Source of the DNA: Prostheceraeus crozeri | Taxonomy: Eukaryota; Platyhelminthes; Polycladida; Euryleptidae | NCBI GenBank assembly: GCA_907163375.1 | Contig: CAJQUW010011280.1 | Span: 186,001-250,000 of the forward strand | Length of the DNA stretch: 64,000 nt | Direction of reading: 5' to 3' | Part shown: positions 21,025-51,745 of the stretch, piece by piece | Numbering within the stretch: position 1 is the first letter of the stretch | Layout of the letters: every line of letters starts with the position of its first letter | Position numbers and translations under genes: made by a program | Notes under the pieces: model-generated | The model's input: the letters and a program-made list of their open reading frames with translations, nothing else | What the model was told of the DNA's origin: nothing | Databases searched by the model: none

Positions 21025-21447
21025 TTCTTCATTTCTTGAATTTGAATAGTGATATGGACCCATTTGCATCTTTAATGTAAATTATGACCATTGTCTTTGA
21101 TTGTGTTGTTTTGCTCTACCAGTGGCAGGTTGCTTATGACATGATCACGATCAAGAAAATACTTTTGAAGCTGAGCATGAAAGTAATAGCAACCCATCGG
21201 ATTGCCAATTCAACAAATATTGCCTCTCCAAGGCTGTCGGGACATAGAGGATTTGTAAAATACTATCATTCCGTCTGCATTACTGTCATGATCAGTCAAT
21301 TCCGTTGTAATTTCTTCAAAACTGCAATACTTTGCTTATCTCACATTTGGCAAGAATAGCCAACAGTGTTCAAATCGAGTTCATTTAATAAAATCGAAGC
21401 TGCATATACATTGGGGATTCAATAAATGCTAAGTTGCTACCTCTATG
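21025..21447 (+). mobile_element. GAGTA-family TA element, copy A (3' part)
   Basis: Shares with copies C, E and F the blocks GAATAGTGATRTGGACCCA, CATTGTCTTTGATT, CCAGTGGCAGGTTGC and TCATGATCAGTCAATTCCG, and the terminal GGGGATT-AATAAATGC. The 5' half is missing. No coding capacity. Confidence 0.75.
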
Positions 21448-21460
21448 GAGACATAACATA

Positions 21461-21924
21461 GAGTGTATGCGAAGGTAGAGTTTCAACTCAAAAGGTTTCT
21501 GTGTGCAGTGAACATTTTTATATGAAAGATTCAGTTTTTTCGGAGATTACGCTCTTGCGGTCCAAAAAATTATTTGAGCAGTTTTTAAAAAGCTAAATTT
21601 TTGCAAATTTATATACTATCAACATGAAGCCCCTTTATGAGTAGCATGAAACATATGCTGGATATCAAAAGGAATGGATATTTGATAGCAAGCATCCTGA
21701 TTATGCGGAAGTTATCCGGAAATTGTGCTGATGATCAAAGAAATTTCATTAATCGCAATAATGCATGTCTTCATCAAAAAATTTCGAGATCTATTGTTAT
21801 TTCTTGGCTGAAATTCATAGTTTTTACTTCAATCTTCATGGACATTTACTTACTTACTTACATGATTTTATGATTCACAAAATTTATGTTTTATTTCTTG
21901 AATTTAAATAGTGATGTGGACCCA
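21461..21924 (+). mobile_element. GAGTA-family TA element, copy B (5' part)
   Basis: Begins TA-GAGTGTATGC and carries the 5' half of the family (TATATGAAAGATTCAG, ATGGATATTTG, TTCTTGAATTTAAATAG), then stops where copy C begins. Either C inserted into it or they were joined by rearrangement. Confidence 0.7.
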
Positions 21925-22562
21925 TAGAGTAGGGATGTATATGCAGTGTGTCGACTCAAAAAGTATATGTATACAGTGAAAATTTTTATATGAAAAGACT
22001 CAGTTTTCTGCGGAGATCACGTTACCGTGGTCCAAAAAATTATCTGAGCACTTTTGAAAAAAGTCAAATTTGCCAATATACAGTGTATACTCTACCGAGA
22101 TGACACTCCTAATTGAAACAATTAAGTTGGATATCAAAAGGAATGAATATTTGCTAATAAGCATCCTAGCAAAGATGAAATCAAGCTGATTATCAGGGGA
22201 ATTTCATGATCCGCATTGGTATGGAAGTCTTCATGAAAAAGTCACGATATTATTCGTGCTCTCTTGACTGAAATTTCAAGTTTTAATTCAATTTTTACCG
22301 GCATGATTTTATGATTCACTAAATTCATGTTTCATTTCTTGAATCTGAATAGTGATGTGGACCATCTTTCGAAGTCAATAAAAATCATTGTCTTTGATTC
22401 TGTTATTTTGCTGTGCCAGTGGCAGGTTGCTTTTCATATGATCACGCTTAAGAAGATTCTCTTGAGATTCAGCATAAAAGCAATAGCAGGTCAGTTGATA
22501 ATTTAATAAACACTACCTCTCCAAGGCTGTCATGACACGGACTATCTGTAAAATAAAATTGT

Positions 22563-23151
22563 AGCGGTGTCATCAATCCAACAACTCCTTACAACATCCA
22601 ACATCCATTACAACTCCTTTCGGTCTTTTCGAGTTTACCAGGATGCCCTTCGGTCTACGCAACGCAGCACAGACATTTCAACGCTTCATCGACGAAATTT
22701 TACGTGGTTTTAACTTCATTTGCCTACGCCCTACGTTGATGACCTGCTAGTCGCTAGCTCCTCACCGGAAGAGCACCAGTCCCATCTCAGAATGCTGTTT
22801 CGACGCCTTGATGAGTACGGACTCATACTGAACCCGTCTAAGTGTGTTTTCGGTGTCTCATCAATTACCTTTCTCGGACACAAGATCGACTGTCATGGAA
22901 TGGCGCCCGTCGAAGACAAGGTCTCGAACTTTCCCCAGCCGAACTCGATAGCTGAACTCCGTCGATTCCTCGGCATGATCAATTTTTACCGCCGCTTTAT
23001 CGCTCGATGTGCAAGTCTTCTACAGCTCCTAACCAATCTGCTCAAAGGCGCATCCAAGTCCCTGAGTTGGTCCTCCGAAGCTGAACAATCCTTCAACGAC
23101 GCCAAGCGTGCCCTCACCAGCGCTGCTTGTCTGGCTTTTCCAGAATCGTAT
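22563..23151 (+). pseudogene. Ty3/gypsy pol fragment: reverse transcriptase
   Basis: An LTR-retrotransposon RT: TPFGLFEFTRMPFGLRNAAQ and FQRFIDEILRGF, then a frameshift right at the catalytic box, after which YVDDLLVASSSPEEH, NPSKCVFGVSSITFLGHKI and LRRFLGMINFYRRFI follow. It runs to ACLAFPES, where the palindromic unit begins. No LTR, gag or integrase is visible on either side, so it is an internal fragment. The RNase H start follows at 39791, beyond the palindrome. Confidence 0.9.
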
Positions 23152-23204
23152 TCATTTAGGCCCCAGTACATTTAGGCCCCACAAGAAATGGTCATTTAGG
23201 CCCC
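23152..23204. repeat. Terminal iterons, left end
   Basis: CATTTAGGCCCC occurs at 23153, 23169 and 23193 within the first 53 bp. Iterated motifs at transposon ends often bind the transposase. The same set is mirrored at the right end. Confidence 0.85.
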
Positions 23205-25985
23205 ATGTTCTTATGTTATTTTAACTACAAGATTACAATCAAAACCAAGAAAATGTTATGATACATAGGAGCCATACATTACAGAAATATGCTTGGTTTT
23301 ATCAAAGATGCCGCAGAATTGTCTGGGGAGTGGTATGTGGATTGTTCGAGAATGTCAAAAACACCGGTTTATGATGTTATTTTAACCACGGCGAGTTGCA
23401 GCGTGTATGAGGTATCAAAAGACTGCAAATTTTCTGAAACCAGAAATGTCAATGGTTTTACAAGAAATTGTAGTAGTTGTATTTAAATAGCAATAATTCA
23501 AAATTGGACATATTTCATTCACGTGATCATGATGTTATTTCTATCCTGCAAAAACATACAACAAACTTGATATCATTGGATAGAAAATTGTTCACTCTAT
23601 CTAGAAATATCAACGCTTTTGCAGAAAATGCTGACACAAGAAAACGCATTTCTAAACGCACCAGCTGGACGTGGAATTTTGTGGTCTGCCGCTATTAACG
23701 AAGCTATCAGCCTATATCTACGCACACGGCATGTTTCAAGGCAGCAGGGAAAGTAATTAGCTTTTATTTCATTGCAATGAATGCTTAGTCTTATTGCAGG
23801 AGGTTAGATCAGTGGAATCGGCTTGCAGACTGATGAACGGAGCTTATGATTGCTTGGCTTAGTTAGGAACAACCCTATATAGATAACTAAAGAATAGAAG
23901 GGAGTGCTATGTACAGGACACTGTGCATATGCAGCAGATGAATAATGAGTAATGAATAAGCAGATGTTGGTGGAATGGCTATTGGCTACTGCATAGGTTG
24001 AGTCGGCAAATATTTGGTCTCGCATCTATTACACCGGCTATCTGGTGCAGCAATCTTCCATTTTTGTTGTCGTGTCTAGTTGCTCAGAAATTTCTGACTC
24101 CAAATCTCTCAATGAAATAAGTGTGTGTCTTGATTTGTTTGTTTGTCTTGCTTCACCTTGGTCCTGCTTTGCATCCTACAGGCACGCGTGAACAGGGGAC
24201 CACTGAAAGCTCAGCCCGCCTAATCTTCAGCCAGACACATTGATCTCGGACTTTTGATTGCACATGAATGATATAGAACTACATATAGATGAGCTGGCAG
24301 TGGATGCCAATGCAACTATCGCTTGCACTTATCTAATTCATGAATACCAGAGTGTTCAAACTGTCATGATTCCATCAAATTTTAGGAAATCCAATCCACA
24401 TGTCAGACTCTTTTTGCATGCATCATATACTGTGACCGATTTCTACCACCATGACAACTAGATCATTAGATTCTAAGAACATCTCCACGACAACTTCGCA
24501 AGCCGGGTCGACCAGAGAAATTCGATTTGTGCCTCGAAACAACCCTGAGATACATGGCTACTAAGACAGAGATTCTAACAATCAGGCATGATGATTGCAG
24601 CAATCCTCGAAGCCTAGTTCGTCAATACAAGAGGCTTCGGCTCTCTTTTGAAATAATATCTCGGGATGAATTTCAGCGATGGAGCTGCGATTATATTAAA
24701 AACTTCTAAAATCATTCTTCACATTTGGAATATCTAGGAATATCGGTGAAAAAGTAAAAAGTTATAGCATGATGGTGTGTATATCAGTGATGAAACTGGT
24801 TCAAAGGCACCATTCGGTGACCGACTCAATGACTCGGGTTCTTTTTGGGTTCTTATGCTTTTGTAGTCATAGAGCAAGCTTGTAGCTCAATTGTGGTCGA
24901 AGTGAATAATCCGTTAGCCTATACTAAGTCTATCACTGGGCGACTGGAAATGCAATTAGTCATTGTTCAATGGCGAAAGACAAGTAAAGATTCAGTGCAA
25001 GTCGCTTGTTGCTGTCGCTTGGATTATCACTAGCCGACACAGCTCTGAAAGAGGCGCCATGAGGCTATGATGTAAATTCACTGATAATTTTACAGGAAAT
25101 AAGTAACCATGAGTAACCATAAGGGAATGATTTTCCAATATTTAGTAGTTTAAAATTGAAATATTACAGATGAAGCTCTTATTTGCTGTATCACAGGAAT
25201 TCTATGTGCATGTGATCGAGTTTGACGATTCGTGCTATCAGTATTTAAAATTTTTTCGCGGTTGCGCGGTACGGTATAGAGGCGAATAATGAAGGTGAGG
25301 AACAATTCGAAAGCACTTCCGCAAATTTTGGAAAGTTGAATTTTATGTGCAACTTATCACTTAGAGTTTAATTACTTCAGTACGAGTAGAGCAATCTGAT
25401 TTCATTCAGATGCTTATACATATAAAAATCTGACTGAGTCATTAATATGTTTGCATGTTTTTCAGGAAATTTTTTTAAAAGTATGATCCTAAAGGCCAAC
25501 TTCGATACAAAGTCACATCATTGGTCGTCTAGCCTGCTAGCAATTGACGACAATCATTTGAAAAAATCCTCTCGCAAAAGTATGGCAATTTTGATATCAA
25601 AAGACTGACTATATGCATGTTCAAAATTGTAATTCTTTTGTATGTTTAGGTCCATTTTTCGCTTATATAATTTAAATGTATGTAGTCCCATTTTTTCGAT
25701 GGGGCACTGTCAGAGGATTTTGGCTCGATGTGGCCTGATCTGTAATATAGCTTGTGCGGGACATGTTCAAATTAATTTCATTTCCCCTGAACGAACTGCG
25801 TTGCTCGTGATAGGCATTGCAAATTGTTACAGCCACAAAAATAATGAATGACAGCATTAGTAGCTGAGTAGTTAATTGTAAAACGCCTTCAATTTCAGGC
25901 AAATGACTTGATATACAATGATAATGACCTTAATACTTGTATATTACAAAATAAATTCCAGAGAAGCATGGCATAATTACATGTA

Positions 25986-27420
25986 CAGTTATGGCCAATG
26001 ATATCCGACCACTAATGATATGGCCATTGATTTCCGACCACTAATATTTTCATGCTGACAAATTTAATTTACTTGTATAACCACACGTTATGCTTGCAAT
26101 AATTCATTGATTTATCTATCAGGCATTAGCCAATCACAATAGAGTATAGAGTATGCATAAAATCGGTAGAATTCTCAGAATTGCACGAATTCTAGGAATT
26201 GTCTGTCATAGTTAATTTGTGTGTCACATTGTAATCATGCCTACAAATCCTGCTGCTGGCGCTAATATTAAACTTTTATCTGAAGATGGATGGAGTGAAC
26301 GTCAGCTCGCAGTAAGATTAAATTTGTCAAAGACAACAGTTCATGATATGAGGCCTATCCATGTTTTCAAGCAGACTGGATCCACAGGTCCCAAAAAATG
26401 TAACCAGGCAGAACAAGAATCACCAGCCGTCAAACTGATAACATGATACGGCGTGCTGCTGTGAGGAATCCTTCTATATCCAGTTCTAAAATTAGAGCAC
26501 AATTACCTGAAAATGTTGTAATCAGCACTCGAACCATAAGAAGACGTCTCCTTATCGATGCAGGTCTTCACTCTTACCGTCCAGCTGTAAAACCTCGACT
26601 TTCTCCAAAGAATATTAAAGATCGACTAATCTTGTGCAGAACTCACAAAGACTGGACAGTTGACCAGTGGTGAGAGTACTCTTCATCGACGGAACACAAA
26701 TAAAGCAGTTTCAACCACACAGGGCATTGGCTCGACGTCCTTCAAATCAGTGATTCAATCCAAGGTTTAATGTCCCAGCTGTGAAAAAATGTCCCTCAAT
26801 CATGGCATGGGGCTATACATCTGCATTTGGTCGCGGAAGTATTTACTTTGTGCAGCAAGGGAAGACGGTCAATTCCGCTGAGTATTTAAAAATCATTCAA
26901 GAAAAGGTGCCACAATGGATGGAACTTCATAGGTACGATGTGTTCCAACATGACGGTGCACCATGCCACCAATTCCGTGCTGTAAAATCTTGGCTTCATT
27001 GTAATGATATTGAAGTACCCACTTACCCAGTCCTTGACCAGGACCGTCCCCAGGAAAAGTTGAAGTTGTCAGTGTCAAAATCCAATCCATCTTCACTGAT
27101 AGATCTCAAAGCTGCTATTCTTCATGCCTGGACCCATGAGATATCTCCTGCGTATTGTCAATCTGTCGTGGATTCAATGCCACGACGACTCAATGCAATT
27201 CTAGCGGCTCATGATACTGCAACTAAGTATTAAATGTTTTATGAAACATTGACATTTTGCACCTAAAATGACCAGTGACATTTAGATGCATGTGCAATTG
27301 CTCACGTGTATTAATTATACATGCTTTTGTTTATAATTTAAATACTACTTATTAACTAATACTTTGAACTCGTTTTATTCTAAAAACATATGGGTGGTCG
27401 GATATCATTGGCCATAACTG
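25986..27420 (+). mobile_element. Tc1-like element in the left arm
   Basis: Starts CAGTTATGGCCAATGATATC and ends with its complement at 27420, each flanked by TA. The left end repeats the motif once more (a GGCCATTGATTTCCGACCAC variant about 30 bp in). The CAGT end and TA flanks are typical of Tc1. Its transposase is broken (26219-27233). The same element lies at the mirrored place in the right arm. Confidence 0.9.
26219..27233 (+). pseudogene. Tc1-like transposase, broken
   Basis: Three frames are needed. First a paired-type helix-turn-helix (LSEDGWSERQLAVRLNLSKT with TVHD). Then a second DNA-binding part (NVVISTRTIRRRLLIDAGL, SPKNIKDRLILC, DWTVDQW) and a first catalytic Asp in an altered FIDGT box. 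Finally IMAWGYTSAFGRGSIYF and FQHDGAPCH with the second Asp. The third acidic position, normally in an SPDLNPIEN box, is lost in an altered stretch near 27040-27060. The protein is dead. Confidence 0.88.
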
Positions 27421-30400
27421 TAAGTGCAGATGCTTTATGCCAATTGTGATCGTTGCTATAAACTTACATGCGCTATTAAAGATTGGACATAAGTGAGCAT
27501 GTTTGATATGCATATGTAATATTTGAATGCTTGATGCATATGCCCTATGTCAATTTGACGTTTTTTGCATCAACTATCTTCAACTTCATCAATAATAATT
27601 TTTATTGCAGTTCATCGGTCTCATTTGATAGTGATACTTTATCTCTTTACATTTTTATAGAGAACTTTAGTTGCCTCACACTTGCTTTGCTGCCATTGCT
27701 TGAAGCGCAACTTCTTTTCTTTGTCAGCGCTTTCCACTTCCGAATTCCACCATCAGGTCTCTCTTATGCCTGCCCAGCCTTTGCTGCGACCACACTCTTT
27801 TTCAGCACCAAGCTGTCTTCATCCTGTTCCACTCCAAGTCAAATGTATTTTGGTCTGCAATATATCCTTCGTGGTTCATAACTTCCTCGTTAAAGTGTAT
27901 GGTTAAAGTGCAACTCCACAATGAACTCAGAATGCCAACGCATGTACAATGGGCCATATATTTACATCGTGCTGAAAACGAAAGATAAAACGTCTAGAAG
28001 GCTATTCCTTTTATTATCTAGTTCAATCACTGCATGATGACGATTGACGCTGTTGGAGATTCGTGCGCAACATTTTTTGCTTCATCTCTGAAATATAAAA
28101 GATTAATTGGATTGAATGATAAATTGATTATAACATTTATTTCGTGTTTCCATGATTGCATGTATTCATTGACTAAGGAGACATCGAAACCTTGCTCTTT
28201 AATTCATCCAGGGTAGTTTGATTGATTTGTTTAAGTATCTGTATGTGCATTATAAATGGCTGCTGGGATGATTTTCATCATCGTAAAAAATAAAAAAAAA
28301 ATAAAATCAAATATCAGCATGCCGATGGTGAGAAACGAAGGAAATCGTTATTCGCACGCATAAATTCTTGCGAATTTTTTGCGTCGAAATAACCGCGCCA
28401 CAGTGGCCTGGTAAGGAGCAGGAATCTGAGACAAAACTATTTACAACCCATGAATGCGTCAATGGATCAGGAACGTGATCATTTTCATTTTCTATGTAAG
28501 ACACAGTCAACAATGACCCAATTTCATTTCGCAGAAAATACGTGATCTAGCTAGACGTGTTTACTTGCTTCTGCTCGTGAATATCAATGTCGATCGTGAT
28601 TTGTGGATCTGACTGTGACAGTCAGTCATTAGTTCTACTGTTACAAGTAAACAGTTAACATCTTGTAAATATTATTCCTTTTTTCTTCAACAGGTCGTCT
28701 ACGCTAACCCAAAGGATTTTCAGAAACCGTCAACGATGTGTCTTAGTGTTGGTCAGTGCAATGAATCAAATTTCAAAGCTGTTCAATGAGCAGAAGATTG
28801 TGGATTAATCAGCTGGAAAATGAAGTGCACTTCTCTTCTGTTTCACTTCAGTGTCCTGAAGTCTTCAATATAGTGGAAATTAGTGTAACTCGTTGTGCAG
28901 AACGAGTTTCAGCATGATATGGCATTTTTGGTGAATTGTGATATTCCTGTGTATGATAGTGGTATGTAGACTGGGACAGTGTCACGACTTTGTTGACATA
29001 CTATGTTTTGGTAAAGTTGGATAAATTGTATCTTTCATGTGAAAATCAGTCTGTTTTTGAAACTTGTCAGTGTTGTGAATTCCTATATGAATAAAATGTG
29101 AAGTTAATGACTTGCTCTTATAATGTACTAAGTGTATGGAAGGTAGTAGGCGAATGGGCAAGGCAAGGGAAGCGCAAATCCAATAACAGTTAAATTTGTG
29201 TTTGAATATGCAATCGGCTAGTGTTAGGGTAAGGTTTGGCGAACGGGCTAGTTTCCAGGGATGAGGGCTTCGAATCTGGATTGTAGGTGAATAGAGGATC
29301 AATACGAGTATAAGTTTGCCTAGGTTTCGGTGTTGGGTCGTGTCTTAAGAAAGAGTTGAAGTTTCGCAAAGATGACTTGTATATTTCATGCGCATAGGCC
29401 TGCATGTCATAGTGGTGGTAGTTGGCATGTGTCAGGTAAGTTTGCATAGGTGATAGAGCATGCTCATATTACCCACAGGCATTGCTAGGAATGTTTGACA
29501 ACAGATTAGGACAGTAGAAATATGCTACGAAGGAGGCATGGTTATGGCTATAGGCCGTAATTGCAGTTGAACATAAATTTTAGTAATGAGTTGTATTGTA
29601 AGTGATGGATAAGCGCTAGGACTTCATGAAGGGAAGACACTAAAGAGGTCTAAATATGTCCTTAAAAACTGTGACAGTCACGGAACTAAGTTATGCAAAT
29701 TACATGTACTTGCAATTGTTATGCAGGCCTATACCCACATGTAGCTACATGTGCCAATTGCAGCATGTAAGAGGGGGCGCGTGAATTCAGCAGGAATGGA
29801 TTGAGGAAGGAATTCTAGTTGGCATATGCACGAAAAGATCCCGAGAGGAAAAAAGTTGGCTGTCAAGTTATATCAATTGTTGTAGAAATGTAAGCCACGA
29901 ATTTCAATTGGATAGAGTTTCGACCTACACCTTTTCCATCCCCGGAATTCAACTCTGAAATTCAACAACTGCAATCTCAGATCAAAAATAGAAATATGCA
30001 CTATTCAATTCAAATAATGGGAAATCTCAGAATATCTTTCTTTTTTTTCAGTTCAACATCTCAAATCAATTGACGCAGTTTTGAATAAAACAAATTCAAG
30101 TTTCTTTGGAATGATGGGTTACATCCAGCTGATTCACTATGATATCTTAATGAACATTCGTTCATTTAATAAGGCCAAGGTTTATGGCTCAATTACTTAT
30201 ATTCTTTCTGGCTCCGCCTGAGTTGTGAAAGAATGCTTATAATTATTGCATTTTTAAGTATAATAATCATTATTTGACATAATTTCAAAATAAAACTGTT
30301 AATACATTAGTTAAACATATTATTTTTATGCATTTGATATACGAGACATGTAAATGTATTTAAACTTAGTTTGTTCCGGGGATGTGCACACAGCGTGTTT

Positions 30401-30618
30401 ATTTTTTAAAGAATTCGTATTGTTCAACACCTAAATGAGTTCAAGTCATCTGCAAGCGCTCACATTTCGATATATTGCTCATTTGGAACAAGCGGTGGAC
30501 TGTACCACGTGTTATGTCTGATGAATGCTAATTCCTCAAAGTATATCTTCTAGGTATATCTTCATATCTAAATATTTCTTCAAAATATATCTTCTCCGCA
30601 TGACACCATCATACACTA

Positions 30619-31036
30619 GGTGACATGCCACGCGTAATTACGGAACACCCCAAACATCCGTGGTTAAGGGCATTCTATTCTTCTACCCGCGTACATACGC
30701 GCTGCACTAAGAGTCAGAAATCACTTGATCTGATGCTGTTAAAACATGGGAAATGTTTATGAATACGCGCGGGCGAGCGTTTATAGTTTGCGCGTCGTCC
30801 ACGGTTGTCTGCGCTGCCGCTTGAACCACGGATGAACCGCTAAGCATGTTCTGTCTTCCCTGAGCATGAAATTGAGGTCCTATCACATTGTTCAGCCTCT
30901 GATACATGCAGACACATGAGACGCAAAGTCTATGTAACAGGACTGCCAACTATACTAACTTATATTGCAGCAATATCCCGCATAGCCACGGATGTTTGGG
31001 GTCATAATTACGCGTGATTGAGTGTGGCATGTCACC
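30619..31036. mobile_element. 418-bp TA-flanked MITE-like foldback in the spacer
   Basis: Starts GGTGACATGCCACGCG and ends with GGCATGTCACC, flanked by TA on both sides (30617-30618, 31037-31038). The inner blocks CACCCCAAACATCCGTGG and its complement are also inverted. Arms of about 60 bp. No coding capacity. Confidence 0.82.
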
Positions 31037-31113
31037 TATTGTACTAAGCTCCAACGGTTTATTCAATGTGTTTAGGCTGGACACTATTTGAGATTTTTAG
31101 ATGCTCACCTTGC

Positions 31114-33045
31114 TCACCTTGTCGACCCTTGTCCCGCGTATCCCAGGGTAGGTCCAGTCCTCTTTTTCCATTCCTTCCGGTTATGGACCAGGGAGGCATC
31201 CACTCCTTTTGTCTTCATGTCGGCGGCTATTGTCGCTGTCCAGGTCTTCTTCGGGCGGCCTCTACCTCTTCTTCCTTCCACTTGCAGACGTGATGCTTTC
31301 TTAAGGGGATGGCTCTCTCCGCGACGCTGCACATGACCAAACCATGACAGCCTTCTTGCTCTTGCCACTTCTTGAATAGGGGCTATCTCCACATTAGATC
31401 TTATTTCTTCATTGGTCTTCCGGTCCAAGCGTGTGTAGCCCTGCATCCACCTTAGCATCCGCATCTCCGCCACGTGCAGCTTCTGCTCATCTGTATTGAG
31501 AGGGGCCCAGCACTCAGAACCATAAAGGATTGCTGGCCTGATCATAGAGGAGTATACTTTGCTCTTTATCTTCATTGGCATCCTTCTGTCACATAGCACT
31601 GGAGTCAGTCTCTTCCATGTGTTCCAGCCGCAACGTACTCGATGTGCAACATCACCTGCGCTGGTCACCTCAGTATTGACCATGGACCCCAGATATTTAA
31701 AGCAGTCCACACTCTTCACCGGCTGACTCTGAATCTCCACAGTTGTTCTTCTTGGGTCGGACGACAGATATTCGGTCTTGGAACGGCTTACCCTCAGGCC
31801 CTTACTCTCAAATGCTCTCCTCCATGCTTCCAACCTTCGCTCTACATCTTGATGACTGCTTCCAAATATTACGAGATCGTCGGCGTATAATATATCCCAG
31901 GGACCACCTCTTCTGCAATCCTTGGAAATTTCATCCATTATTACGATGAAGAGAAAAGGGCTTAAAGCTGATCCTTGATGTAGCCCAACAGAGACAGGAA
32001 AGGCACGACTTTCACCTTGTCTACATCTCACTGCAGTTGTGCTGTCCCTGTACATGTCCTGTATTAAACGGATGTAGCACTCCGGTACTTCCCGTGTGCG
32101 GAGACAATTCCATATCAGCTTCCTTGGGACTGTATCGTAGGCCTTTTCGAGATCAACGAACACTGCGTGGAAAGGCTTATTTTTCTCTCTGAATGCCTCC
32201 ATCGCCATTCTCAGACAAAATTGTGGGTCTGTTGTGCCAACTCCTAGTCTGAAGCCAAATTGATTGATATCCACCTCAATAAGATCACGAAGACGCTTCT
32301 CCAAAATCTTCTCCAGAATCTTCATGGTGTGACTGAGAAGCTTGATACCGCGATAGTTGCCAACATCTTGATGGTCTCCTTTACCCTTGAAGATAGGTGT
32401 AATAACACTTTTCCGCCACGCGTCCGGTATCCTTCCCGATGTCAGTATCTCATTGAAGAGGTACACCAGAAGGTCCAAGCCGTAGTCCCCAAGCACCTTG
32501 AAAACTTCAATAGGAATGTCATCCGGTCCACAACTTTTACCCGATCTCACTTTTTTCAGTTGGTCAGCCACTTCATCCCTTGTAATCATCTCCACTGGAC
32601 CCTCAACAGCAGCTCCAGCAGGGATCTCTTCATGCGGCCTTGCTTGATTCAACAGGGCTTCGTAGTAGTTTGCCCAGCGCTGCCTGTTCCCACTTGCCGT
32701 TGTGATAATGTGACCCGACTCATCCTTGACGAAGAAACCTTCATAATTGTCCTTTCTCGCTTTATCTCTCGCAGTTGCAATACGGTACACCATCTTTTCC
32801 GTTGCATCATATTTAGCCTTGGCCACCGCTGCTTTAGCCTGTCTCTTTGCGAGCCTGTAAGCTTCCTTGTCCTCTGATGTACGGGACCTCTGCCATTTCT
32901 TAAAGGCTTCATTCTTGTGCCTGACGGTCTGATAGATTTTTAGATGTTGATCAATAAATTCCAAGACACCTGGCGTAAAATTGACTTGACTATGTTCGCA
33001 TGGCGTCTGAGTTATCATCAACTTGCGGGTAATGAATTGGAACAC
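31114..33045 (-). CDS. RTE-type LINE reverse transcriptase, 643-codon open frame, 5'-truncated
   Basis: A long uninterrupted frame with the RT motif series: SCGPDDIPIEVFK, NYRGIKLLSHTMKILEKILE, NQFGFRLGVGTTD, VFVDLEKAYDTVPR, GLHQGSALSPFLFIVIMDE and the catalytic ILYADDLVIFG. It is followed by the C-terminal YGSECWAPL, AEMRMLRWMQGYTR and RLSWFGHVQRRGESHPLKKA parts and a KKTW tail. This is the RTE clade layout. The upstream endonuclease domain is missing: the frame begins about 45 bp from the right arm boundary. The ATG used is simply the first in the frame. It is the least decayed LINE in the window. It spans the symmetry centre, so it joined after or during the event that made the palindrome. 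Confidence 0.9.
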   Translation of the reverse strand: MFQFITRKLMITQTPCEHSQVNFTPGVLEFIDQHLKIYQTVRHKNEAFKKWQRSRTSEDKEAYRLAKRQAKAAVAKAKYDATEKMVYRIATARDKARKDNYEGFFVKDESGHIITTASGNRQRWANYYEALLNQARPHEEIPAGAAVEGPVEMITRDEVADQLKKVRSGKSCGPDDIPIEVFKVLGDYGLDLLVYLFNEILTSGRIPDAWRKSVITPIFKGKGDHQDVGNYRGIKLLSHTMKILEKILEKRLRDLIEVDINQFGFRLGVGTTDPQFCLRMAMEAFREKNKPFHAVFVDLEKAYDTVPRKLIWNCLRTREVPECYIRLIQDMYRDSTTAVRCRQGESRAFPVSVGLHQGSALSPFLFIVIMDEISKDCRRGGPWDILYADDLVIFGSSHQDVERRLEAWRRAFESKGLRVSRSKTEYLSSDPRRTTVEIQSQPVKSVDCFKYLGSMVNTEVTSAGDVAHRVRCGWNTWKRLTPVLCDRRMPMKIKSKVYSSMIRPAILYGSECWAPLNTDEQKLHVAEMRMLRWMQGYTRLDRKTNEEIRSNVEIAPIQEVARARRLSWFGHVQRRGESHPLKKASRLQVEGRRGRGRPKKTWTATIAADMKTKGVDASLVHNRKEWKKRTGPTLGYAGQGSTR

Positions 33046-35520
33046 AACGGAATGTTCAGCAATTCACGGAATGTCCAACTGCATTTCAATTTTCCTCTCG
33101 GGATCTTTTCGTGCATATGCCAACTAGAATTCCTTCCTCAATCCATTCCTGCTGAATTCACGCGCCCCCTCTTACATGCTGCAATTGGCACATGTAGCTA
33201 CATGTGGGTATAGGCCTGCATAACAATTGCAAGTACATGTAATTTGCATAACTTAGTTCCGTGACTGTCACAGTTTTTAAGGACATATTTAGACCTCTTT
33301 AGTGTCTTCCCTTCATGAAGTCCTAGCGCTTATCCATCACTTACAATACAACTCATTACTAAAATTTATGTTCAACTGCAATTACGGCCTATAGCCATAA
33401 CCATGCCTCCTTCGTAGCATATTTCTACTGTCCTAATCTGTTGTCAAACATTCCTAGCAATGCCTGTGGGTAATATAAGCATGCTCTATCACCTATGCAA
33501 ACTTACCTGACACATGCCAACTACCACCACTATGACATGCAGGCCTATGCGCATGAAATATACAAGTCATCTTTGCGAAACTTCAACTCTTTCTTAAGAC
33601 ACGACCCAACACCGAAACCTAGGCAAACTTATACTCGTATTGATCCTCTATTCACCTACAATCCAGATTCGAAGCCCTCATCCCTGGAAACTAGCCCGTT
33701 CGCCAAACCTTACCCTAACACTAGCCGATTGCATATTCAAACACAAATTTAACTGTTATTGGATTTGCGCTTCCCTTGCCTTGCCCATTCGCCTACTACC
33801 TTCCATACACTTAGTACATTATAAGAGCAAGTCATTAACTTCACATTTTATTCATATAGGAATTCACAACACTGACAAGTTTCAAAAACAGACTGATTTT
33901 CACATGAAAGATACAATTTGTCCAACTTTACCAAAACATAGTATGTCAACAAAGTCGTGACACTGTCCCAGTCTACATACCACTATCATACACAGGAATA
34001 TCACAATTCACCAAAAATGCCATATCATGCTGAAACTCGTTCTGCACAACGAGTTACACTAATTTCCACTATATTGAAGACTTCAGGACACTGAAGTGAA
34101 ACAGAAGAGAAGTGCACTTCATTTTCCAGCTGATTAATCCACAATCTTCTGCTCATTGAACAGCTTTGAAATTTGATTCATTGCACTGACCAACACTAAG
34201 ACACATCGTTGACGGTTTCTGAAAATCCTTTGGGTTAGCGTAGACGACCTGTTGAAGAAAAAAGGAATAATATTTACAAGATGTTAACTGTTTACTTGTA
34301 ACAGTAGAACTAATGACTGACTGTCACAGTCAGATCCACAAATCACGATCGACATTGATATTCACGAGCAGAAGCAAGTAAACACGTCTAGCTAGATCAC
34401 GTATTTTCTGCGAAATGAAATTGGGTCATTGTTGACTGTGTCTTACATAGAAAATGAAAATGATCACGTTCCTGATCCATTGTCGCATTCATGGGTTGTA
34501 AATAGTTTTGTCTCAGATTCCTGCTCCTTACCAGGCCACTGTGGCGCGGTTATTTCGACGCAAAAAATTCGCAAGAATTTATGCGTGCGAATAACGATTT
34601 CCTTCGTTTCTCACCATCGGCATGCTGATATTTGATTTTATTTTTTTTTTATTTTTACGATGATGAAAATCATCCCAGCAGCCATTTATAATGCACATAC
34701 AGATACTTAAACAAATCAATCAAACTACCCTGGATGAATTAAAGAGCAAGGTTTCGATGTCTCCTTAGTCAATGAATACATGCAATCATGGAAACACGAA
34801 ATAAATGTTATAATCAATTTATCATTCAATCCAATTAATCTTTTATATTTCAGAGATGAAGCAAAAAATGTTGCGCACGAATCTCCAACAGCGTCAATCG
34901 TCATCATGCAGTGATTGAACTAGATAATAAAAGGAATAGCCTTCTAGACGTTTTATCTTTCGTTTTCAGCACGATGTAAATATATGGCCCATTGTACATG
35001 CGTTGGCATTCTGAGTTCATTGTGGAGTTGCACTTTAACCATACACTTTAACGAGGAAGTTATGAACCACGAAGGATATATTGCAGACCAAAATACATTT
35101 GACTTGGAGTGGAACAGGATGAAGACAGCTTGGTGCTGAAAAAGAGTGTGGTCGCAGCAAAGGCTGGGCAGGCATAAGAGAGACCTGATGGTGGAATTCG
35201 GAAGTGGAAAGCGCTGACAAAGAAAAGAAGTTGCGCTTCAAGCAATGGCAGCAAAGCAAGTGTGAGGCAACTAAAGTTCTCTATAAAAATGTAAAGAGAT
35301 AAAGTATCACTATCAAATGAGACCGATGAACTGCAATAAAAATTATTATTGATGAAGTTGAAGATAGTTGATGCAAAAAACGTCAAATTGACATAGGGCA
35401 TATGCATCAAGCATTCAAATATTACATATGCATATCAAACATGCTCACTTATGTCCAATCTTTAATAGCGCATGTAAGTTTATAGCAACGATCACAATTG
35501 GCATAAAGCATCTGCACTTA

Positions 35521-36956
35521 CAGTTATGGCCAATGATATCCGACCACCCATATGTTTTTAGAATAAAACGAGTTCAAAGTATTAGTTAATAAGTAGTATT
35601 TGAATTATAAACAAAAGCATGTATAATTAATACACGTGAGCAATTGCACATGCATCTAAATGTCACTGGTCATTTTAGGTGCAAAATGTCAATGTTTCAT
35701 AAAACATTTAATACTTAGTTGCAGTATCATGAGCCGCTAGAATTGCATTGAGTCGTCGTGGCATTGAATCCACGACAGATTGACAATACGCAGGAGATAT
35801 CTCATGGGTCCAGGCATGAAGAATAGCAGCTTTGAGATCTATCAGTGAAGATGGATTGGATTTTGACACTGACAACTTCAACTTTTCCTGGGGACGGTCC
35901 TGGTCAAGGACTGGGTAAGTGGGTACTTCAATATCATTACAATGAAGCCAAGATTTTTACAGCACGGAATTGGTGGCATGGTGCACCGTCATGTTGGAAC
36001 ACATCGTACCTATGAAGTTCCATCCATTGTGGCACCTTTTCTTGAATGATTTTTAAATACTCAGCGGAATTGACCGTCTTCCCTTGCTGCACAAAGTAAA
36101 TACTTCCGCGACCAAATGCAGATGTATAGCCCCATGCCATGATTGAGGGACATTTTTTCACAGCTGGGACATTAAACCTTGGATTGAATCACTGATTTGA
36201 AGGACGTCGAGCCAATGCCCTGTGTGGTTGAAACTGCTTTATTTGTGTTCCGTCGATGAAGAGTACTCTCACCACTGGTCAACTGTCCAGTCTTTGTGAG
36301 TTCTGCACAAGATTAGTCGATCTTTAATATTCTTTGGAGAAAGTCGAGGTTTTACAGCTGGACGGTAAGAGTGAAGACCTGCATCGATAAGGAGACGTCT
36401 TCTTATGGTTCGAGTGCTGATTACAACATTTTCAGGTAATTGTGCTCTAATTTTAGAACTGGATATAGAAGGATTCCTCACAGCAGCACGCCGTATCATG
36501 TTATCAGTTTGACGGCTGGTGATTCTTGTTCTGCCTGGTTACATTTTTTGGGACCTGTGGATCCAGTCTGCTTGAAAACATGGATAGGCCTCATATCATG
36601 AACTGTTGTCTTTGACAAATTTAATCTTACTGCGAGCTGACGTTCACTCCATCCATCTTCAGATAAAAGTTTAATATTAGCGCCAGCAGCAGGATTTGTA
36701 GGCATGATTACAATGTGACGCACAAATTAACTATGACAGACAATTCCTAGAATTCGTGCAATTCTGAGAATTCTACCGATTTTATGCATACTCTATACTC
36801 TATTGTGATTGGCTAATGCCTGATAGATAAATCAATGAATTATTGCAAGCATAACGTGTGGTTATACAAGTAAATTAAATTTGTCAGCATGAAAATATTA
36901 GTGGTCGGAAATCAATGGCCATATCATTAGTGGTCGGATATCATTGGCCATAACTG
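35521..36956 (-). mobile_element. Tc1-like element in the right arm
   Basis: Mirror copy of the element at 25986-27420, with the same ends, TA flanks and internal faults. It was therefore present before the arm was duplicated, or was copied across by gene conversion. Confidence 0.9.
35708..36723 (-). pseudogene. Tc1-like transposase, broken (right-arm copy)
   Basis: Same domain remnants as the left-arm copy (helix-turn-helix, FIDGT box, FQHDGAPCH). One additional base near 35953 truncates the last frame after FRAVK, so this copy is one step more decayed than the left one. Confidence 0.85.
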
Positions 36957-39737
36957 TACATGTAATTATGCCATGCTTCTCTGGAATTTATTTTGTAATA
37001 TACAAGTATTAAGGTCATTATCATTGTATATCAAGTCATTTGCCTGAAATTGAAGGCGTTTTACAATTAACTACTCAGCTACTAATGCTGTCATTCATTA
37101 TTTTTGTGGCTGTAACAATTTGCAATGCCTATCACGAGCAACGCAGTTCGTTCAGGGGAAATGAAATTAATTTGAACATGTCCCGCACAAGCTATATTAC
37201 AGATCAGGCCACATCAAGCAAAATCCTCTGACAGTGCCCCATCGAAAAAATGGGACTACATACATTTAAATTATATAAGCGAAAAATGGACCTAAACATA
37301 CAAAAGAATTACAATTTTGAACATGCATATAGTCAGTCTTTTGATATCAAAATTGCCATACTTTTGCGAGAGGATTTTTTCAAATGATTGTCGTCAATTG
37401 CTAGCAGGCTAGACGACCAATGATGTGACTTTGTATCGAAGTTGGCCTTTAGGATCATACTTTTAAAAAAATTTCCTGAAAAACATGCAAACATATTAAT
37501 GACTCAGTCAGATTTTTATATGTATAGCATCTGAATGAAATCAGATTGCTCTACTCGTACTGAAGTAATTAAACTCTAAGTGATAAGTTGCACATAAAAT
37601 TCAACTTTCCAAAATTTGCGGAAGTGCTTTCGAATTGTTCCTCACCTTCATTATTCGCCTCTATACCGTACCGCGCAACCGCGAAAAAATTTTAAATACT
37701 GATAGCACGAATCGTCAAACTCGATCACATGCACATAGAATTCCTGTGATACAGCAAATAAGAGCTTCATCTGTAATATTTCAATTTTAAACTACTAAAT
37801 ATTGGAAAATCATTCCCTTATGGTTACTCATGGTTACTTATTTCCTGTAAAATTATCAGTGAATTTACATCATAGCCTCATGGCGCCTCTTTCAGAGCTG
37901 TGTCGGCTAGTGATAATCCAAGCGACAGCAACAAGCGACTTGCACTGAATCTTTACTTGTCTTTCGCCATTGAACAATGACTAATTGCATTTCCAGTCGC
38001 CCAGTGATAGACTTAGTATAGGCTAACGGATTATTCACTTCGACCACAATTGAGCTACAAGCTTGCTCTATGACTACAAAAGCATAAGAACCCAAAAAGA
38101 ACCCGAGTCATTGAGTCGGTCACCGAATGGTGCCTTTGAACCAGTTTCATCACTGATATACACACCATCATGCTATAACTTTTTACTTTTTCACCGATAT
38201 TCCTAGACATTCCAAATGTGAAGAATGATTTTAGAAGTTTTTAATATAATCGCAGCTCCATCGCTGAAATTCATCCCCGGAGATATTATTTCAAAAGAGA
38301 GCCGAAGCCTCTTGTATTGACGAACTAGGCTTCGAGGATTGCTGCAATCATCATGCCTGATTGTTAGAATCTCTGTCTTAGTAGCCATGTATCTCAGGGT
38401 TGTTTCGAGGCACAAATCGAATTTCTCTGGTCGACCCGGCTTGCGAAGTTGTCGTGGAGATGTTCTTAGAATCTAATGATCTAGTTGTCATGGTGGTAGA
38501 AATCGATCACAGTATATGATGCATGCAAAAAGAGTCTGACATGTGGATTGGATTTCCTAAAATTTGATGGAATCATGACAATTTGAACACTCTGGTATTC
38601 ATGAATTAGATAAGTGCAAGCGATAGTTGCATTGGCATCCACTGCCAGCTCATCTATATGTAGTTCTATATCATTCATGTGCAATCAAAAGTCCGAGATC
38701 AATGTGTCTGGCTGAAGATTAGGCGGGCTGAGCTTTCAGTGGTCCCCTGTTCACGCGTGCCTGTAGGATGCAAAGCAGGACCAAGGTGAAGCAAGACAAA
38801 CAAACAAATCAAGACACACACTTATTTCATTGAGAGATTTGGAGTCAGAAATTTCTGAGCAACTAGACACGACAACAAAAATGGAAGATTGCTGCACCAG
38901 ATAGCCGGTGTAATAGATGCGAGACCAAATATTTGCCGACTCAACCTATGCAGTAGCCAATAGCCATTCCACCAACATCTGCTTATTCATTACTCATTAT
39001 TCATCTGCTGCATATGCACAGTGTCCTGTACATAGCACTCCCTTCTATTCTTTAGTTATCTATATAGGGTTGTTCCTAACTAAGCCAAGCAATCATAAGC
39101 TCCGTTCATCAGTCTGCAAGCCGATTCCACTGATCTAACCTCCTGCAATAAGACTAAGCATTCATTGCAATGAAATAAAAGCTAATTACTTTCCCTGCTG
39201 CCTTGAAACATGCCGTGTGCGTAGATATAGGCTGATAGCTTCGTTAATAGCGGCAGACCACAAAATTCCACGTCCAGCTGGTGCGTTTAGAAATGCGTTT
39301 TCTTGTGTCAGCATTTTCTGCAAAAGCGTTGATATTTCTAGATAGAGTGAACAATTTTCTATCCAATGATATCAAGTTTGTTGTATGTTTTTGCAGGATA
39401 GAAATAACATCATGATCACGTGAATGAAATATGTCCAATTTTGAATTATTGCTATTTAAATACAACTACTACAATTTCTTGTAAAACCATTGACATTTCT
39501 GGTTTCAGAAAATTTGCAGTCTTTTGATACCTCATACACGCTGCAACTCGCCGTGGTTAAAATAACATCATAAACCGGTGTTTTTGACATTCTCGAACAA
39601 TCCACATACCACTCCCCAGACAATTCTGCGGCATCTTTGATAAAACCAAGCATATTTCTGTAATGTATGGCTCCTATGTATCATAACATTTTCTTGGTTT
39701 TGATTGTAATCTTGTAGTTAAAATAACATAAGAACAT

Positions 39738-39790
39738 GGGGCCTAAATGACCATTTCTTGTGGGGCCTAAATGTACTGGGGCCTAAATGA
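39738..39790. repeat. Terminal iterons, right end
   Basis: Three copies of GGGGCCTAAATG, the exact inverted counterpart of the left-end set. The unit ends ...CCTAAATGA at 39790, after which gypsy sequence resumes. Confidence 0.85.
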
Positions 39791-39975
39791 CTGGGCACCC
39801 TTTTCCCGATCAATCTTCACAGTTGGTACTCGCCGTCGACGCGTCTAACTTCGCTGTTCGTGCGTCTCTGCAACAGTTGACAGACACTGAACTTCAACCG
39901 CTTGCATTCTTTTCACGGAAACTTACTTTGGTGATTTACCTTACTACAATCATCATAGACATTACCCAAAACCTC
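39791..39975 (+). pseudogene. Ty3/gypsy pol fragment: RNase H start
   Basis: HPFPDQSSQLVLAVDASNFA and LQPLAFFSRKLT are the opening of the gypsy RNase H domain, with the first catalytic Asp in VDAS. It continues the RT fragment that ends at 23151, so both pieces were one before the palindromic unit arrived. It breaks off after about 50 codons at the return to copy C of the GAGTA family. Confidence 0.88.
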
Positions 39976-40097
39976 TACAATATCATTTCCTTCTGCCTTA
40001 TACTATCATGATCAGTCAATTCCGTTGTAATTTCTTCAAACTGCATAAATATGCACATCTCACATTTGGTAACAATTCCGAATGTATCTCCCTCGAG

Positions 40098-41171
40098 AAG
40101 TGATGCAAATGGAAAATTTTTCAGATGATTTTTCGGAAGATTTTCCAATTTTGCAAAATTTTCCAATGGAAAATTTTGAAATTTATTTTTCGGTGATTGA
40201 CGTTTTTTCCTTTGTTTTGGAGACTTGTTATAGTCGCCTGAAAAGACTTTAATTCTTCAAAGACCGAAAACTTCTCTATCATCCCTGTATGTTACCTTTT
40301 GGAACCAACTGCACCCTCTCCACGTATTTCAGATTTTTCCATATGAATTTTAGACATTAGAAAGATTTCAGATTTCTGTAATTGAATTTCAGATATCTGC
40401 TAGAAGCCCAACTTTGAAAGGATCTTAAATTCAATTGGAGAATCTCCAATTTATCTGGAAATATCTGAAATTCATTTGGGCAGATCTGAAATCGATTTGG
40501 AACATATCTGAACCATCTGAGCTAGAAATGGAAGATGTGCAGTTTGTCCTCATCGAAGATCGGACAATACGCCAGAAGTTAGAAACTGTCATTCTTATAC
40601 TCATCACAGATATTTTCAGTTTCCAAATATCTCACGAGTTTATACAGTCCTTATATATATTCCAATATGGTCGCTTATGCATAATGCTGTGGTGGACTGT
40701 GTGCTTATGCTTCACATATTCATCAACACGGAGAATTTGTATCATTATAATCAAGGTTGCATAATTAAGCCTAACTTTCAAGCTTTAAGCAAGCTCACAA
40801 AACAAGTGCATTATTTTTGCTCCAGATCTTTCACATTGCATGATATTATACCCCCATTGTAATGGAAAGAAGTCCCGTTATCCCAAACGGTGTCTGTGAT
40901 AATCAAAAATGCTAACAAATTACCACAAGCCATTGGTGGTAAAGGAATGCTGAAAATCCGCCGACGGGAGTCGTATTGCTACGATCGTTTTAATCGAAAT
41001 AATATGATGAAATCAAGAGTTTTAGAACAATTTTATTAATGTGTCCATGCCTCGGCTGTGGAAGCGGTCAAATTATAGGGCCTATATCACAAAAAATCAA
41101 AACTTTCAAAATTTTCCAAAATTTTCCAATATTTTCTACGGAAAAAATTTTCCGGAAAATTTTCATCACTA
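40098..41171. mobile_element. Nonautonomous hAT-like element, copy 1
   Basis: Ends AAGTGATG and CATCACTA with subterminal GAAAATTTT-rich repeats. Flanks CCCTCGAG (40090-40097) and CCCATGAG (41172-41179) agree at 6 of 8 positions, as expected for an old 8-bp target duplication. It interrupts copy C of the GAGTA family. No transposase. The second copy is at 42967-45187. Confidence 0.75.
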
Positions 41172-41263
41172 CCCATGAGTTCCTTTAATGAAATCGAAAG
41201 TGTATACAGATTGGGGAATTAATAAATTCGGAGTCACCACTCTACCTAACATATTTACTCTAT

Positions 41264-41394
41264 GGTTGGCAATTTTTGGCAAGAATGCCCAACTGTGTTC
41301 ACCTCGAGTTCACTGAATGAAATCTAAACTGTATACACATTTCGTGGGGATTTAATAAATGCTGAGTTGCCACTCTACCTAAATATACTTACTC
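41264..41394 (+). mobile_element. GAGTA-family TA element, copy D (3' end only)
   Basis: Matches the last 130 bp of the family (TTGGCAAGAATGCCCAAC, GTATACACATT, TTGCCACTCTACCTAA) and ends TACTC. It directly follows copy C. Confidence 0.7.
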
Positions 41395-41462
41395 ATGCTA
41401 TATGCTCACTCTATGATGCAAGCAACGCATGAAAAATGGAAAGACAACAACCATCTGGCATA

Positions 41463-42279
41463 GAGTAAGTATATTAGGTAGAGTGGTAACCCCGCATTTA
41501 TTAAATCCCCAATGTGTATACACCTTCGATTTTATTAAATGAACTCAAAGGAGATACAGTCGGAATTGTTACCAAATGTGAGATATGCTCATTTATACAG
41601 TTTTGAAGAAATTTCAACGGAATTGACTGATCATGACAGCAAAGCAGAAGGAAATGATATTATTTTACAGATAGTCCGTGTCATGACAGCCTTGGTGAGG
41701 TAATGTTTGTTGAATTGGCAACTCGATGACCTGCGCTATTGCTTTCATGCTGAATCTCAAGAGAATCTTCTTAAGCGTGATCAGGCATCAGCTGACACTG
41801 GCATGGCAAAATCACAGTGATTTCAATCAACTTTGAAAGATGCAAATGGGTCCACATCACTATTCAGATTCAAGAAATGAAACATGAATTTAGTGAATCA
41901 TAAAATCATGCCGGTGAAAACTCTATTGAAAACTTGAAATTTCAGCCAAGAAAGCAAGAATAATATCGTGACTTTTTCATAATGACTTTCATTATAATAC
42001 AATTCATGAAATTCCCCTGATAATCAGCTTGATTTCAGCTTTGTTGGGATTCTTATTAGCACATGTTCATTCCCTTTGCTATCCAACTTGTTTCATACTA
42101 CTTATATGGGAGAGTCATCTCGGTAGTATATAAATTGGCAAATTTTTAATTATTTTCAAAAGTGCTCAAATAATTTTTTGGACCACGGGAACGTATCTCC
42201 TCAAAAAACCGAATCTTTTGATATAAAAATTTTCACTGTATACAGATGCTTATTTGAGTCGACACTCTAGCTCCTACTC
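41463..42279 (-). mobile_element. GAGTA-family TA element, copy E, full length
   Basis: 817 bp, ends GAGTAAGTATATTAGGTAG and CTAGCTCCTACTC, flanked by TA at 41461-41462 and 42280-42281. It is uninterrupted and in opposite orientation to C. It serves as the reference for reading the split copy C. No open frame. Confidence 0.8.
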
Positions 42280-42389
42280 TATACATACAATCGAGTGCTA
42301 AGAGAGCTGGTATTCTGGTGCCTTAGACGGAGATAAGTGCATCAACCATATTACCATATTTCGGCTGCCCATTTCTATGACATGCAAGC

Positions 42390-45585: not shown

Positions 45586-46310
45586 AACCAATCCTATTTC
45601 CTCGACAAATCAAAAATTGAATCCTTGCTAATTATATAGCATCTTTGAAAAAATGGAGGTGTCCTGATCAGTCCAATGTAATGTCCAATACTAGGAGTCC
45701 CAAGCATGCCTAATCCACATCTCTCTTGCAAGTTCATCGACAATATTTAAGAGTTTCATATTTCTAGAAGTGCAGACCAATTATAAATGATGGCAGACGA
45801 AGCACCTTTGTAAGTGGACAAAAAGAATTTTTTGATGCCTCATACAAATAGGAAAGACAGCCGTTCACCTCAAAAAATGCAAAGACTATCTTTAACAATG
45901 AGGAAGAAACGGACACTGCTTATTGATTTGCAAAATATCTGAAGACATTCAATAATTAACAACAATAACCAACATTTTAATCATGTCACAGGCTTTGTTA
46001 TAGTTTTGTAAATTTAAAGAAACGTTAGCTCATTTAAACTGGTTAGATTGAATACAATGTATTTTTATGAGGCTAGCATGCAAACACACTACCAAAGGCC
46101 ACATTTTCGTCGGTTGGCGATAAATCAGATCAGATTTGTAGGAAAGGAGCAGCTTATTCGCCATCTACCGTTTTTCAATTTTAGATGTATTTCGAAAAAG
46201 ACAAATTCGATTTTCACATCTGCCGATAGTTTTATCACGAAAATGAATGAAAAATAAATTTAGCCAAACTCACCATAATTCCCGAAAATAATGGACTAAA
46301 TAGTGCCATA
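45586..46310. other. Stretch without recognised feature
   Basis: AT-rich DNA of about 0.7 kb between a LINE fragment and copy F. The 69-codon frame at 46048-46257 resembles nothing I know. Confidence 0.4.
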
Positions 46311-47141
46311 CAGTAAGTATATTATGTAACGTATCGACTCGAAAAGTATCTGCATACAGCGAAAATATTTATAAGAAAATATTCAGTTTTTTGCGGGGAT
46401 TACATTCCTGCGATCCAATAAATTATTTGCGCAGTTTTTAAAAACTAAATTTTTGCAAATTATTCTTGTGTTTATATACTACCGACGTGAAGCCACTAAG
46501 TAGTACGCAGCATATTAGATATCAAAAGGTATGAACCTTTGCTAAAGGTATCTTAATTAGGCGGAAATTGAGCTGATTATCAGGGAAGCTTCATAAACCA
46601 AATTATAATGCACAAGTCTCCATTGAAGAATTCAGATCTTATTGTGCTTCATGACTGAAATTTCAAGCTTTTGATTCAATTTTCATCGGCATAATTTTAT
46701 GATTCACTAAATTTATGTTTCATTTTTGAATCTCAATAGTAATGAGGACCCACGTACATCTTTTAAAATAACTTGTGATCATTGTCTTTGATTATGATAT
46801 TCTGCTCTTTCAGTGGCAGGTAGTTTGTGATATGAACACAATTAAAATATTCTTAGGCTGAGCATTAGAGTAAGCACATGTAACTCATCGAATTGCCAAT
46901 TTAACAAACTATGCTACCTCTCCAAGGGTGTCACGACACAGAGGATTTTCAAAATACTATTTTTCTTTCTATATTGTATCATGACCAGTCAAATCCTTGT
47001 AAGTTTCTTTAAAAGTGTAAAAATTTGCATGTCTCACATCGTAATGGGTCTCAATTCAAGTTCATTTAATGAAATCGAAACTGTATACACAATGGGGATT
47101 TAATTAATGCTAAGTTGCCACTCTACCTTATATACTTACTC
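46311..47141 (+). mobile_element. GAGTA-family TA element, copy F, full length
   Basis: 831 bp, ends CAGTAAGTATATTATG and CCTTATATACTTACTC. It aligns along its length with copies C and E but is more diverged. Left flank TA; the right flank is mutated (CA). Noncoding. Confidence 0.76.
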
Positions 47142-47450
47142 CATGGATAGAGTGATTTATTTCAATTGAGAGAAGCCCCAAAACTAGATGTTGGCTAAAT
47201 GATTGACCGTCTAGGCGTCCACACATCAGACTGGTCATGGACAGGTGTAAAACATGATTCACCAGATTATCTTCTGATATTAGCACGCGACGTTCCTACA
47301 GGGTGAACACGTTCACTGCCGGGGCTAAAAACCATGCTCACCGCCCATTGCCAAAGAAAAGTACCATATCAAATTGATTAAAAATACTTGCAAAATATGT
47401 ATTTGGACATTCTAATGACAGATCAAATGTTTTGTTGCAATTTGAAAAGT

Positions 47451-50450: not shown

Positions 50451-51745
50451 TATACCCAAAGTTAGGAGGAAAAACTCAGAACTCGGTACTCAGAGTTTCA
50501 TGTTAACACAATCATCAGCCAAAGCTAAGGAACGAATTTTACAAAGTTAAAATATTGAAGTAAATATGTAATCGGAGTAACCGTGACCTTTACAATTTAA
50601 AGAAATATGCACAGTTACAATAGAAGAATATACAATCGGTGTTTATCGTGACCTTTGCAAAGCAGGACACAAAGAAAGTTAATGTCTTGATAGCAAATAC
50701 TTATTTCGGTGCCTGCATTTGGAGACAAGTTCATTCCGCTTGTTGAGTAGGTTATCACCGTCGTGGTCCAAAATGAAAAACTTCTCGCTGAGACAGAGGT
50801 CGCACCTTTTCGTTACTTGGTTGAAGGGTTTGCAAACTTTTTTTATCCTCCACTTTACTATTGGGCTGGAACCTGCTTCCTTCCAGGTTCAATCCACCTT
50901 ACAGCAGAACCGTGGCAACAAATGTGGGTCAACGCTTTTTGGAACTCGTTGACAGACACTTCAGAGATGGCACCAGATTTCAAAGGGTCTTTAATAGAAA
51001 CACCCTCAAAGTGAGCTATAGCTGTATGCCCAACATCAAATCAATCATAAACGCCCATAACCGGAGAATGTTGAGCAAAGAAGAGAATAACAAAGATCGG
51101 AGGGAATGCAATTGCATGAACAAAGAAAAATGCCCTTTGCAAAATAAATGTATGGCAAGCAACATTGTGTATGAGGCCCAAATTACTTGTAATGGTCAGA
51201 ATAGAAGATATCTGGGTATTTGCGAAAGTTCATTCAAGCTCAGATACGCTAATCACAAGAAGTCGTTTTCCCATGAAAAATACAAGCATGAAACTGAACT
51301 GTCTAAGGAATATTGGAGGCTGAAGGAAGCAGGTTCCAGCCCAATAGTAAAGTGGAGGATAAAAAAGTTTGCAAACCCTTCAACCAAGTAACGAAAAGGT
51401 GCGACCTCTGTCTCAGCGAGAAGTTTTCATTTTGGACCACGACGGTGATAACCTACTCAACAAGCGGAATGAACTTGTCTCCAAATGCAGGCACCGAAAT
51501 AAGTATTTGCTATCAAGACATTAACTTTCTTTGTGTCCTGCTTTGCAAAGGTCACGATAAACACGAATGCATATTCTTCTATTGTAACTGTGCATATTTC
51601 TTTAAATTGTAAAGGTCACGGTTACTCCGATTACATATTTACTTCAATATTTTAACTTTGTAAAATTCGTTCCTCAGCTTTGGCTGATGATTGTGTTAAC
51701 ATGAAACTCTGAGTACCGAGTTCTGAGTTTTTCCTCCTAACTTTG

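Follow-up and report, generated by a model that had tools for sequence, protein, structure and literature searches.

A candidate giant foldback transposon with 6.7-kb terminal inverted repeats in a flatworm genome

What is a stretch of DNA that begins and ends with the same 6.7 kb in opposite orientation and has no recognisable transposase of its own, and how did it come to lie where it does? The question arises in the window analysed here, a 64-kb stretch of the Prostheceraeus crozeri genome with 37% GC that contains Ty3/gypsy-type, non-LTR and Tc1-like fragments.

The inverted arms and their tips

BLAST comparison of the 64-kb window with itself aligned 23152-29852 with 33090-39790 as one inverted pair of 6704 columns at 99.776% identity. 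The left arm (forward strand) and the right arm (reverse strand) each measure 6701 bp and enclose a single-copy spacer of 3237 bp (29853-33089). Together with a global alignment of the arms, this result confirmed the palindromic unit that a first-pass annotation had placed at 23152-39790; the inner arm ends, which it had put at 29851 and 33091 for arms of 6,700 bp, proved near-exact, lying one base further in at 29852 and 33090. In the global alignment the arms differ at 14 places, comprising nine substitutions and five indel events (6 indel bases), in agreement with the annotated divergence of well under 1%. The constant sum of complementary positions (62942) given at the same time is right for the outer ends but does not hold along the whole of the arms, as indels shift the register at about 24663-25722 and 26984-28285. 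Because these 1- and 2-base indels put whole stretches out of register, counting at the constant sum yields 1743 mismatches between arms that are near-identical once aligned.

A 6.7-kb repeat at 99.8% identity cannot have arisen by chance and, judging from substitutions at only 0.13% of positions, the arms became alike recently. Eight of the nine substitutions are transitions (P about 0.001 for at least 8 of 9 if types were random), and the 14 differences are evenly spread (clustering p = 0.82). Recent formation or ongoing gene conversion had been proposed to account for the similarity. The data fit one recent doubling or homogenisation, whereas the unclustered differences lend ongoing conversion no support, even if an even spread is compatible with conversion too. 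At E 0.01 the arm matches nothing in the window other than its partner, and we accordingly rejected the idea that it is composed of local repeats. Among the inverted pairs of at least 150 bp listed in the window, the next one above 98% alike spans 433 bp, and the other pairs longer than 433 bp are 73-83% alike.

That 433-bp alignment (98.6% alike) belongs to a near-identical inverted repeat at 50451-51751 with arms about 439 bp apart and an adjoining TA microsatellite. An ORF at 50825-51388 has no Pfam match; we presume that it resembles the GIY-YIG region encoded by Penelope-like elements. Short self-complementary palindromes also occur at 56510-56745, 7334-7532 and 1772-1935, with alignments of 165-237 columns that are 85-89% alike.

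Both arms of the giant unit have sharp outer ends and start with TCATTTAGGCCCC. Within the left tip (23152-23205, forward strand), the 12-bp motif CATTTAGGCCCC occurs three times, starting at 23153, 23169 and 23193 with spacings of 16 and 24, and mirror copies stand at 39738, 39762 and 39778 in the right tip. When up to two mismatches were allowed, the window contained these six exact sites and one 2-mismatch match at 61768. Three motif copies mark each outer end and none occurs at the inner arm ends, and a single arm is therefore an incomplete element; for the same reason we discarded the view of the arms as two complete transposons in inverted orientation. The copies are candidate transposase-binding sites. 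A literature search with the motif letters returned papers that, by title and abstract, concern other subjects. Apart from the three motif copies, the only tandem array in the arm is a 29-bp doublet at 25990, which is part of a nested Tc1-like element. Internal tandem repeats are common in the terminal inverted repeats of foldback elements, but not universal.

The interrupted target

On either side of the unit lie sequences that, by their profile matches, look like the two halves of one Ty3/gypsy-type fragment (22560-39979). The left part (22560-23151, forward strand, including 10 extra bp next to the arm) starts with TGTAG and encodes reverse transcriptase and the start of RNase H, while the right part (39791-39979, forward strand, including 9 extra bp) encodes RNase H and ends with CTACA. 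Positions 22714-23151 first match RVT_1 (E 2.6e-13), followed by a weak match, below the curated cut-off, to positions 1-26 of RT_RNaseH_2 (E 0.011); positions 39793-39930 match positions 24-66 of the same profile above the cut-off (E 5.3e-9). Because the RNase H profile resumes in register across the unit, within a fragment that is itself nested in a repeat, a real insertion is favoured over an assembly palindrome.

The outer repeat, which we call R, is an older dispersed sequence whose left piece occupies 21945-22559 (forward strand), directly left of the gypsy fragment, and which resumes at about 39979-40097. Compared with an uninterrupted copy at 41400-42300 (reverse strand), the left piece corresponds to positions 33-644 (81.8% identity) and the right piece to positions 640-757 (88.3%). 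The gypsy fragment, with its TG...CA ends, thus splits R at adjoining coordinates. The bases adjoining the fragment, AAAT and ATAT, are not identical and represent at best a 4-bp duplication with one change. Since each element nests inside the earlier one, the likely order of events is R first, then the gypsy fragment and then the giant unit. Several diverged copies of R are found in both orientations around the unit (21028-22559, 39979-42268 and 46306-47145).

Our first idea was of a unit without a target duplication, but this was abandoned when examination of the flanks revealed CTTTTCC at 23135-23141 and again at 39800-39806 (both forward strand). Judged from the flanking sequence, this is a probable 7-bp target duplication, and the two copies bound a probable inserted unit of 16,658 bp (23142-39799). 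The heptamer was first seen by reading the flanks, and a script then searched 40 bp per side. In random-pair controls, a shared 7-mer arose by chance in 346 of 20,000 pairs (1.7%) with 20 bp per end, and in 1884 of 20,000 (9.4%) with 40 bp per end, the span actually searched, which weakens the case. The two copies stand in the same codon phase, at RNase H profile positions common to both halves, and this adds weight to the duplication; two of the codons encode conserved residues, however, so it is probable rather than certain. The repeat extends to 10 bp if one mismatch is accepted.

Between the heptamers and the arms lie 10 bp on the left (23142-23151) and 9 bp on the right (39791-39799), outside the inverted repeat and not mirror images of each other. 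Thus the ends described as exact in the first-pass annotation do share their start, yet the probable insertion boundary lies beyond them, by 10 bp on the left and 9 bp on the right. Plain transposition would require the duplication to touch the arm ends. The extra bases probably represent filler that error-prone repair introduced when the unit inserted; alternatively, they may mark where the element really ends. In flies, transposition followed by error-prone repair is described, and so are short extra bases at duplication ends (PMC11226609).

Passenger elements and the search for a transposase

A decayed Tc1-like element (25986-27420, forward strand) lies in the left arm and is mirrored in the right; its terminal repeats are perfect over 27 bp and bordered by TA (a perfect inverted repeat of 29 nt with the TA included). 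Its label is based on one Pfam helix-turn-helix match (HTH_Tnp_Tc3_2, E 1.5e-14) and the TA-flanked ends. An ORF at 26754-27230 has no Pfam match and looks like a Tc1-type C-terminus by eye; it stands in a different frame from the helix-turn-helix, and so the gene is broken. The copies in the two arms differ at three positions (26222, 26983 and 27339). As the broken copy is present in both arms, its entry and decay preceded the doubling or homogenisation of the arms. We considered this gene as the mover of the unit and rejected it, because the element that carries it is a nested insertion with a TA and termini of its own. Nor do the flanks of the whole unit have the common TA next to the arms that marks Tc1/mariner insertions. 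Elsewhere in the window, at 10904-11960, 181-bp inverted repeats (95.6%) flank a Tc1/mariner-like ORF (11136-11495) with a weak DDE_3 match (E 0.099).

In the spacer, a MITE-like small inverted-repeat element with TA at both ends (30612-31043) is followed by a non-LTR reverse transcriptase ORF of 643 codons (31114-33045, reverse strand; RVT_1, E 1.6e-34). No endonuclease family was matched in this ORF, which we take to be RTE-like and which appears to be 5'-truncated. Its protein is 28-39% identical to three older fragments in the window. The ORF was also rejected as the unit's own gene, being a non-LTR-type reverse transcriptase in a single-copy spacer; like the Tc1-like copy, it is a nested passenger.

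We then read all six frames of the left arm and spacer (23152-33090) against Pfam, the right arm being a 99.8% mirror. Above the curated cut-offs this yielded only the Tc1-like and reverse transcriptase genes, and nothing recognisable as a transposase belonging to the unit itself, as the first-pass annotation had reported. Below cut-off were matches to HTH_32 (E 0.14), HTH_23 (E 0.075), RalF_SCD (E 0.29) and OCD_Mu_crystall (E 0.082), which we attribute to chance or to segments of the nested genes. In the same six frames there was no match to a MULE transposase, nor to a P-type (THAP-domain) transposase, as expected of a non-autonomous copy. Weak or unknown transposases escape Pfam.

In a blastn search with the first kilobase of the arm, no relatives were found in plasmids, which says little for an animal element. 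Likewise, and as expected for such an element, viral contigs contained no second copy with the unit's ends. A scan of viral contigs for close relatives of the reverse transcriptase protein and the gypsy protein confirmed none. Within the window no Rfam family reached threshold and no tRNA was found.

Origin and known relatives

Foldback elements are characterised by a middle domain between long terminal inverted repeats, and here arms of 6701 bp surround a middle of 3237 bp. With two equal ends, a passenger-bearing middle and no gene of its own, the unit has the anatomy of a foldback transposon. The first-pass annotation suggested a giant foldback transposon or an inverted duplication of a transposon end, and of the readings considered this has the most support, with added weight from the split gypsy target and the probable duplication of 7 bp. 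The unit most likely belongs to the foldback class already known, as an extreme case.

The closest precedent we have seen is copy 112, in D. willistoni, of the Drosophila P superfamily element Galileo, which is described as lacking a transposase-coding segment, with identical target duplications and with terminal inverted repeats of 4246 and 4680 bp that include pieces of other transposons (PMC4168063). By that description, it has kilobase terminal inverted repeats, nested elements and the lack of a transposase segment in common with our unit. The unit differs from Galileo in its equal 6.7-kb arms and 3.2-kb spacer and in lacking tandem repeats of ~140 bp; it also gave no P-type transposase match, which a non-autonomous copy would not be expected to give. 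The target duplication reported for Galileo is 7 bp with the consensus GTAGTAC (PMC2775673), whereas the probable one of the unit is CTTTTCC and lies 9-10 bp away from the arms. In D. mojavensis, according to PMC3573991, the longest terminal repeats belong to Galileo copies without a transposase ORF, and one copy recruited internal sequence. The THAP domain of Galileo is reported to bind several sites within the long repeat (PMC3688188), and by analogy the three motif copies of the unit could play the role of such sites.

Tetris, a foldback element of D. virilis, is likewise described as non-autonomous, with a variable middle domain between terminal inverted repeats that reach 1735 bp and no autonomous partner reported as found (PMC4079207). 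In contrast to the unit, its repeats can include tandem repeats of ~220 bp, its duplications are 8-10 bp and three structurally complete copies are given (PMC4079207). The Mutator/Foldback element Tm1 of Meloidogyne is multicopy in the account of PMC3169594, with duplications of 8-10 bp in 45 of 53 complete elements; unlike the unit, some copies have a putative transposase, and the copies whose size is given are far shorter (1080 bp). For MULEs in other groups, duplications of about 9-11 bp are stated (PMC6446971). The unit had been called unusual, and this holds for its length: the arms exceed the longest transposon repeats that we found described, 4.7 kb (PMC4168063), although we claim no record and repeats of about 100 kb are reported from giant virus genomes (PMC12747079). 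It does not hold for the design, since kilobase terminal inverted repeats with nested elements and no transposase are already described (PMC4168063).

How might the arms have reached this size? The explanation we lean towards, with a little more confidence than doubt and from one copy in one window, is that of a non-autonomous foldback-type DNA transposon in which inverted duplication extended the terminal repeat inwards. The starting point would be a transposon end with three copies of the 12-bp motif and the previously acquired Tc1-like copy. Copying of that end in inverted orientation would generate the order arm, spacer, arm with 6.7-kb terminal repeats, and a transposase supplied in trans would then bind to both ends, which are identical, through their CATTTAGGCCCC clusters. 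The unit would have inserted into the gypsy fragment with a 7-bp target duplication, with error-prone repair adding the 9-10 bp of filler.

It is possible, if rather doubtful, that the doubling took place on the spot: a transposon with short terminal repeats would have inserted in the gypsy copy, and its left arm would later have been copied into the right end when a break or failed excision was repaired via the common short repeat, so that the giant repeat never moved as such. This would yield exact outer ends, a single target and near-identical arms without an inner motif cluster, and the broken Tc1-like copy with its three differences again places the doubling or homogenisation after the decay; the price is a repair tract of 6.7 kb. 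A single copy fits doubling before insertion and doubling in place alike, and cannot decide between them.

Quite unlikely, in our view, is an origin without any transposase, in which end joining at a staggered break captured palindromic DNA that was linear or broken. The 10 and 9 extra bases do resemble end-joining filler, and the fly study reports short de novo insertions at duplication ends alongside transposition with error-prone repair (PMC11226609). Both arms, however, begin at one and the same base of the motif cluster, which random ends would not do. Highly improbable is an artefact in which the assembler, or a chimeric or hairpin read, duplicated the arm in inverted orientation: no other repeat in the window comes near the giant one in length, but a read-through palindrome would mirror its flanks, which are instead different parts of one gypsy-type fragment, and the excess of transitions among the substitutions is typical of mutation rather than random error.

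As an extension of the foldback-type reading, we regard as very doubtful a giant-foldback family with arms above 6 kb whose unknown transposase would recognise the CATTTAGGCCCC cluster and cut at a distance of about 10 bp from it on the outer side, leaving every insertion with a few bases beyond the repeat.

To our knowledge, it is unsettled how the terminal repeats of foldback elements grow, and a young example whose arms reach 6.7 kb within a clean target bears on how far such growth can go. If transcribed, the arms would be expected to yield kilobases of double-stranded RNA. Foldback elements are reported to cause inversions and other rearrangements (PMC2775673). Lastly, the window includes a likely host gene, an exon-like ORF at 56029-56397 that matches the Rubicon Homology Domain (E 5e-6), just under the curated cut-off.
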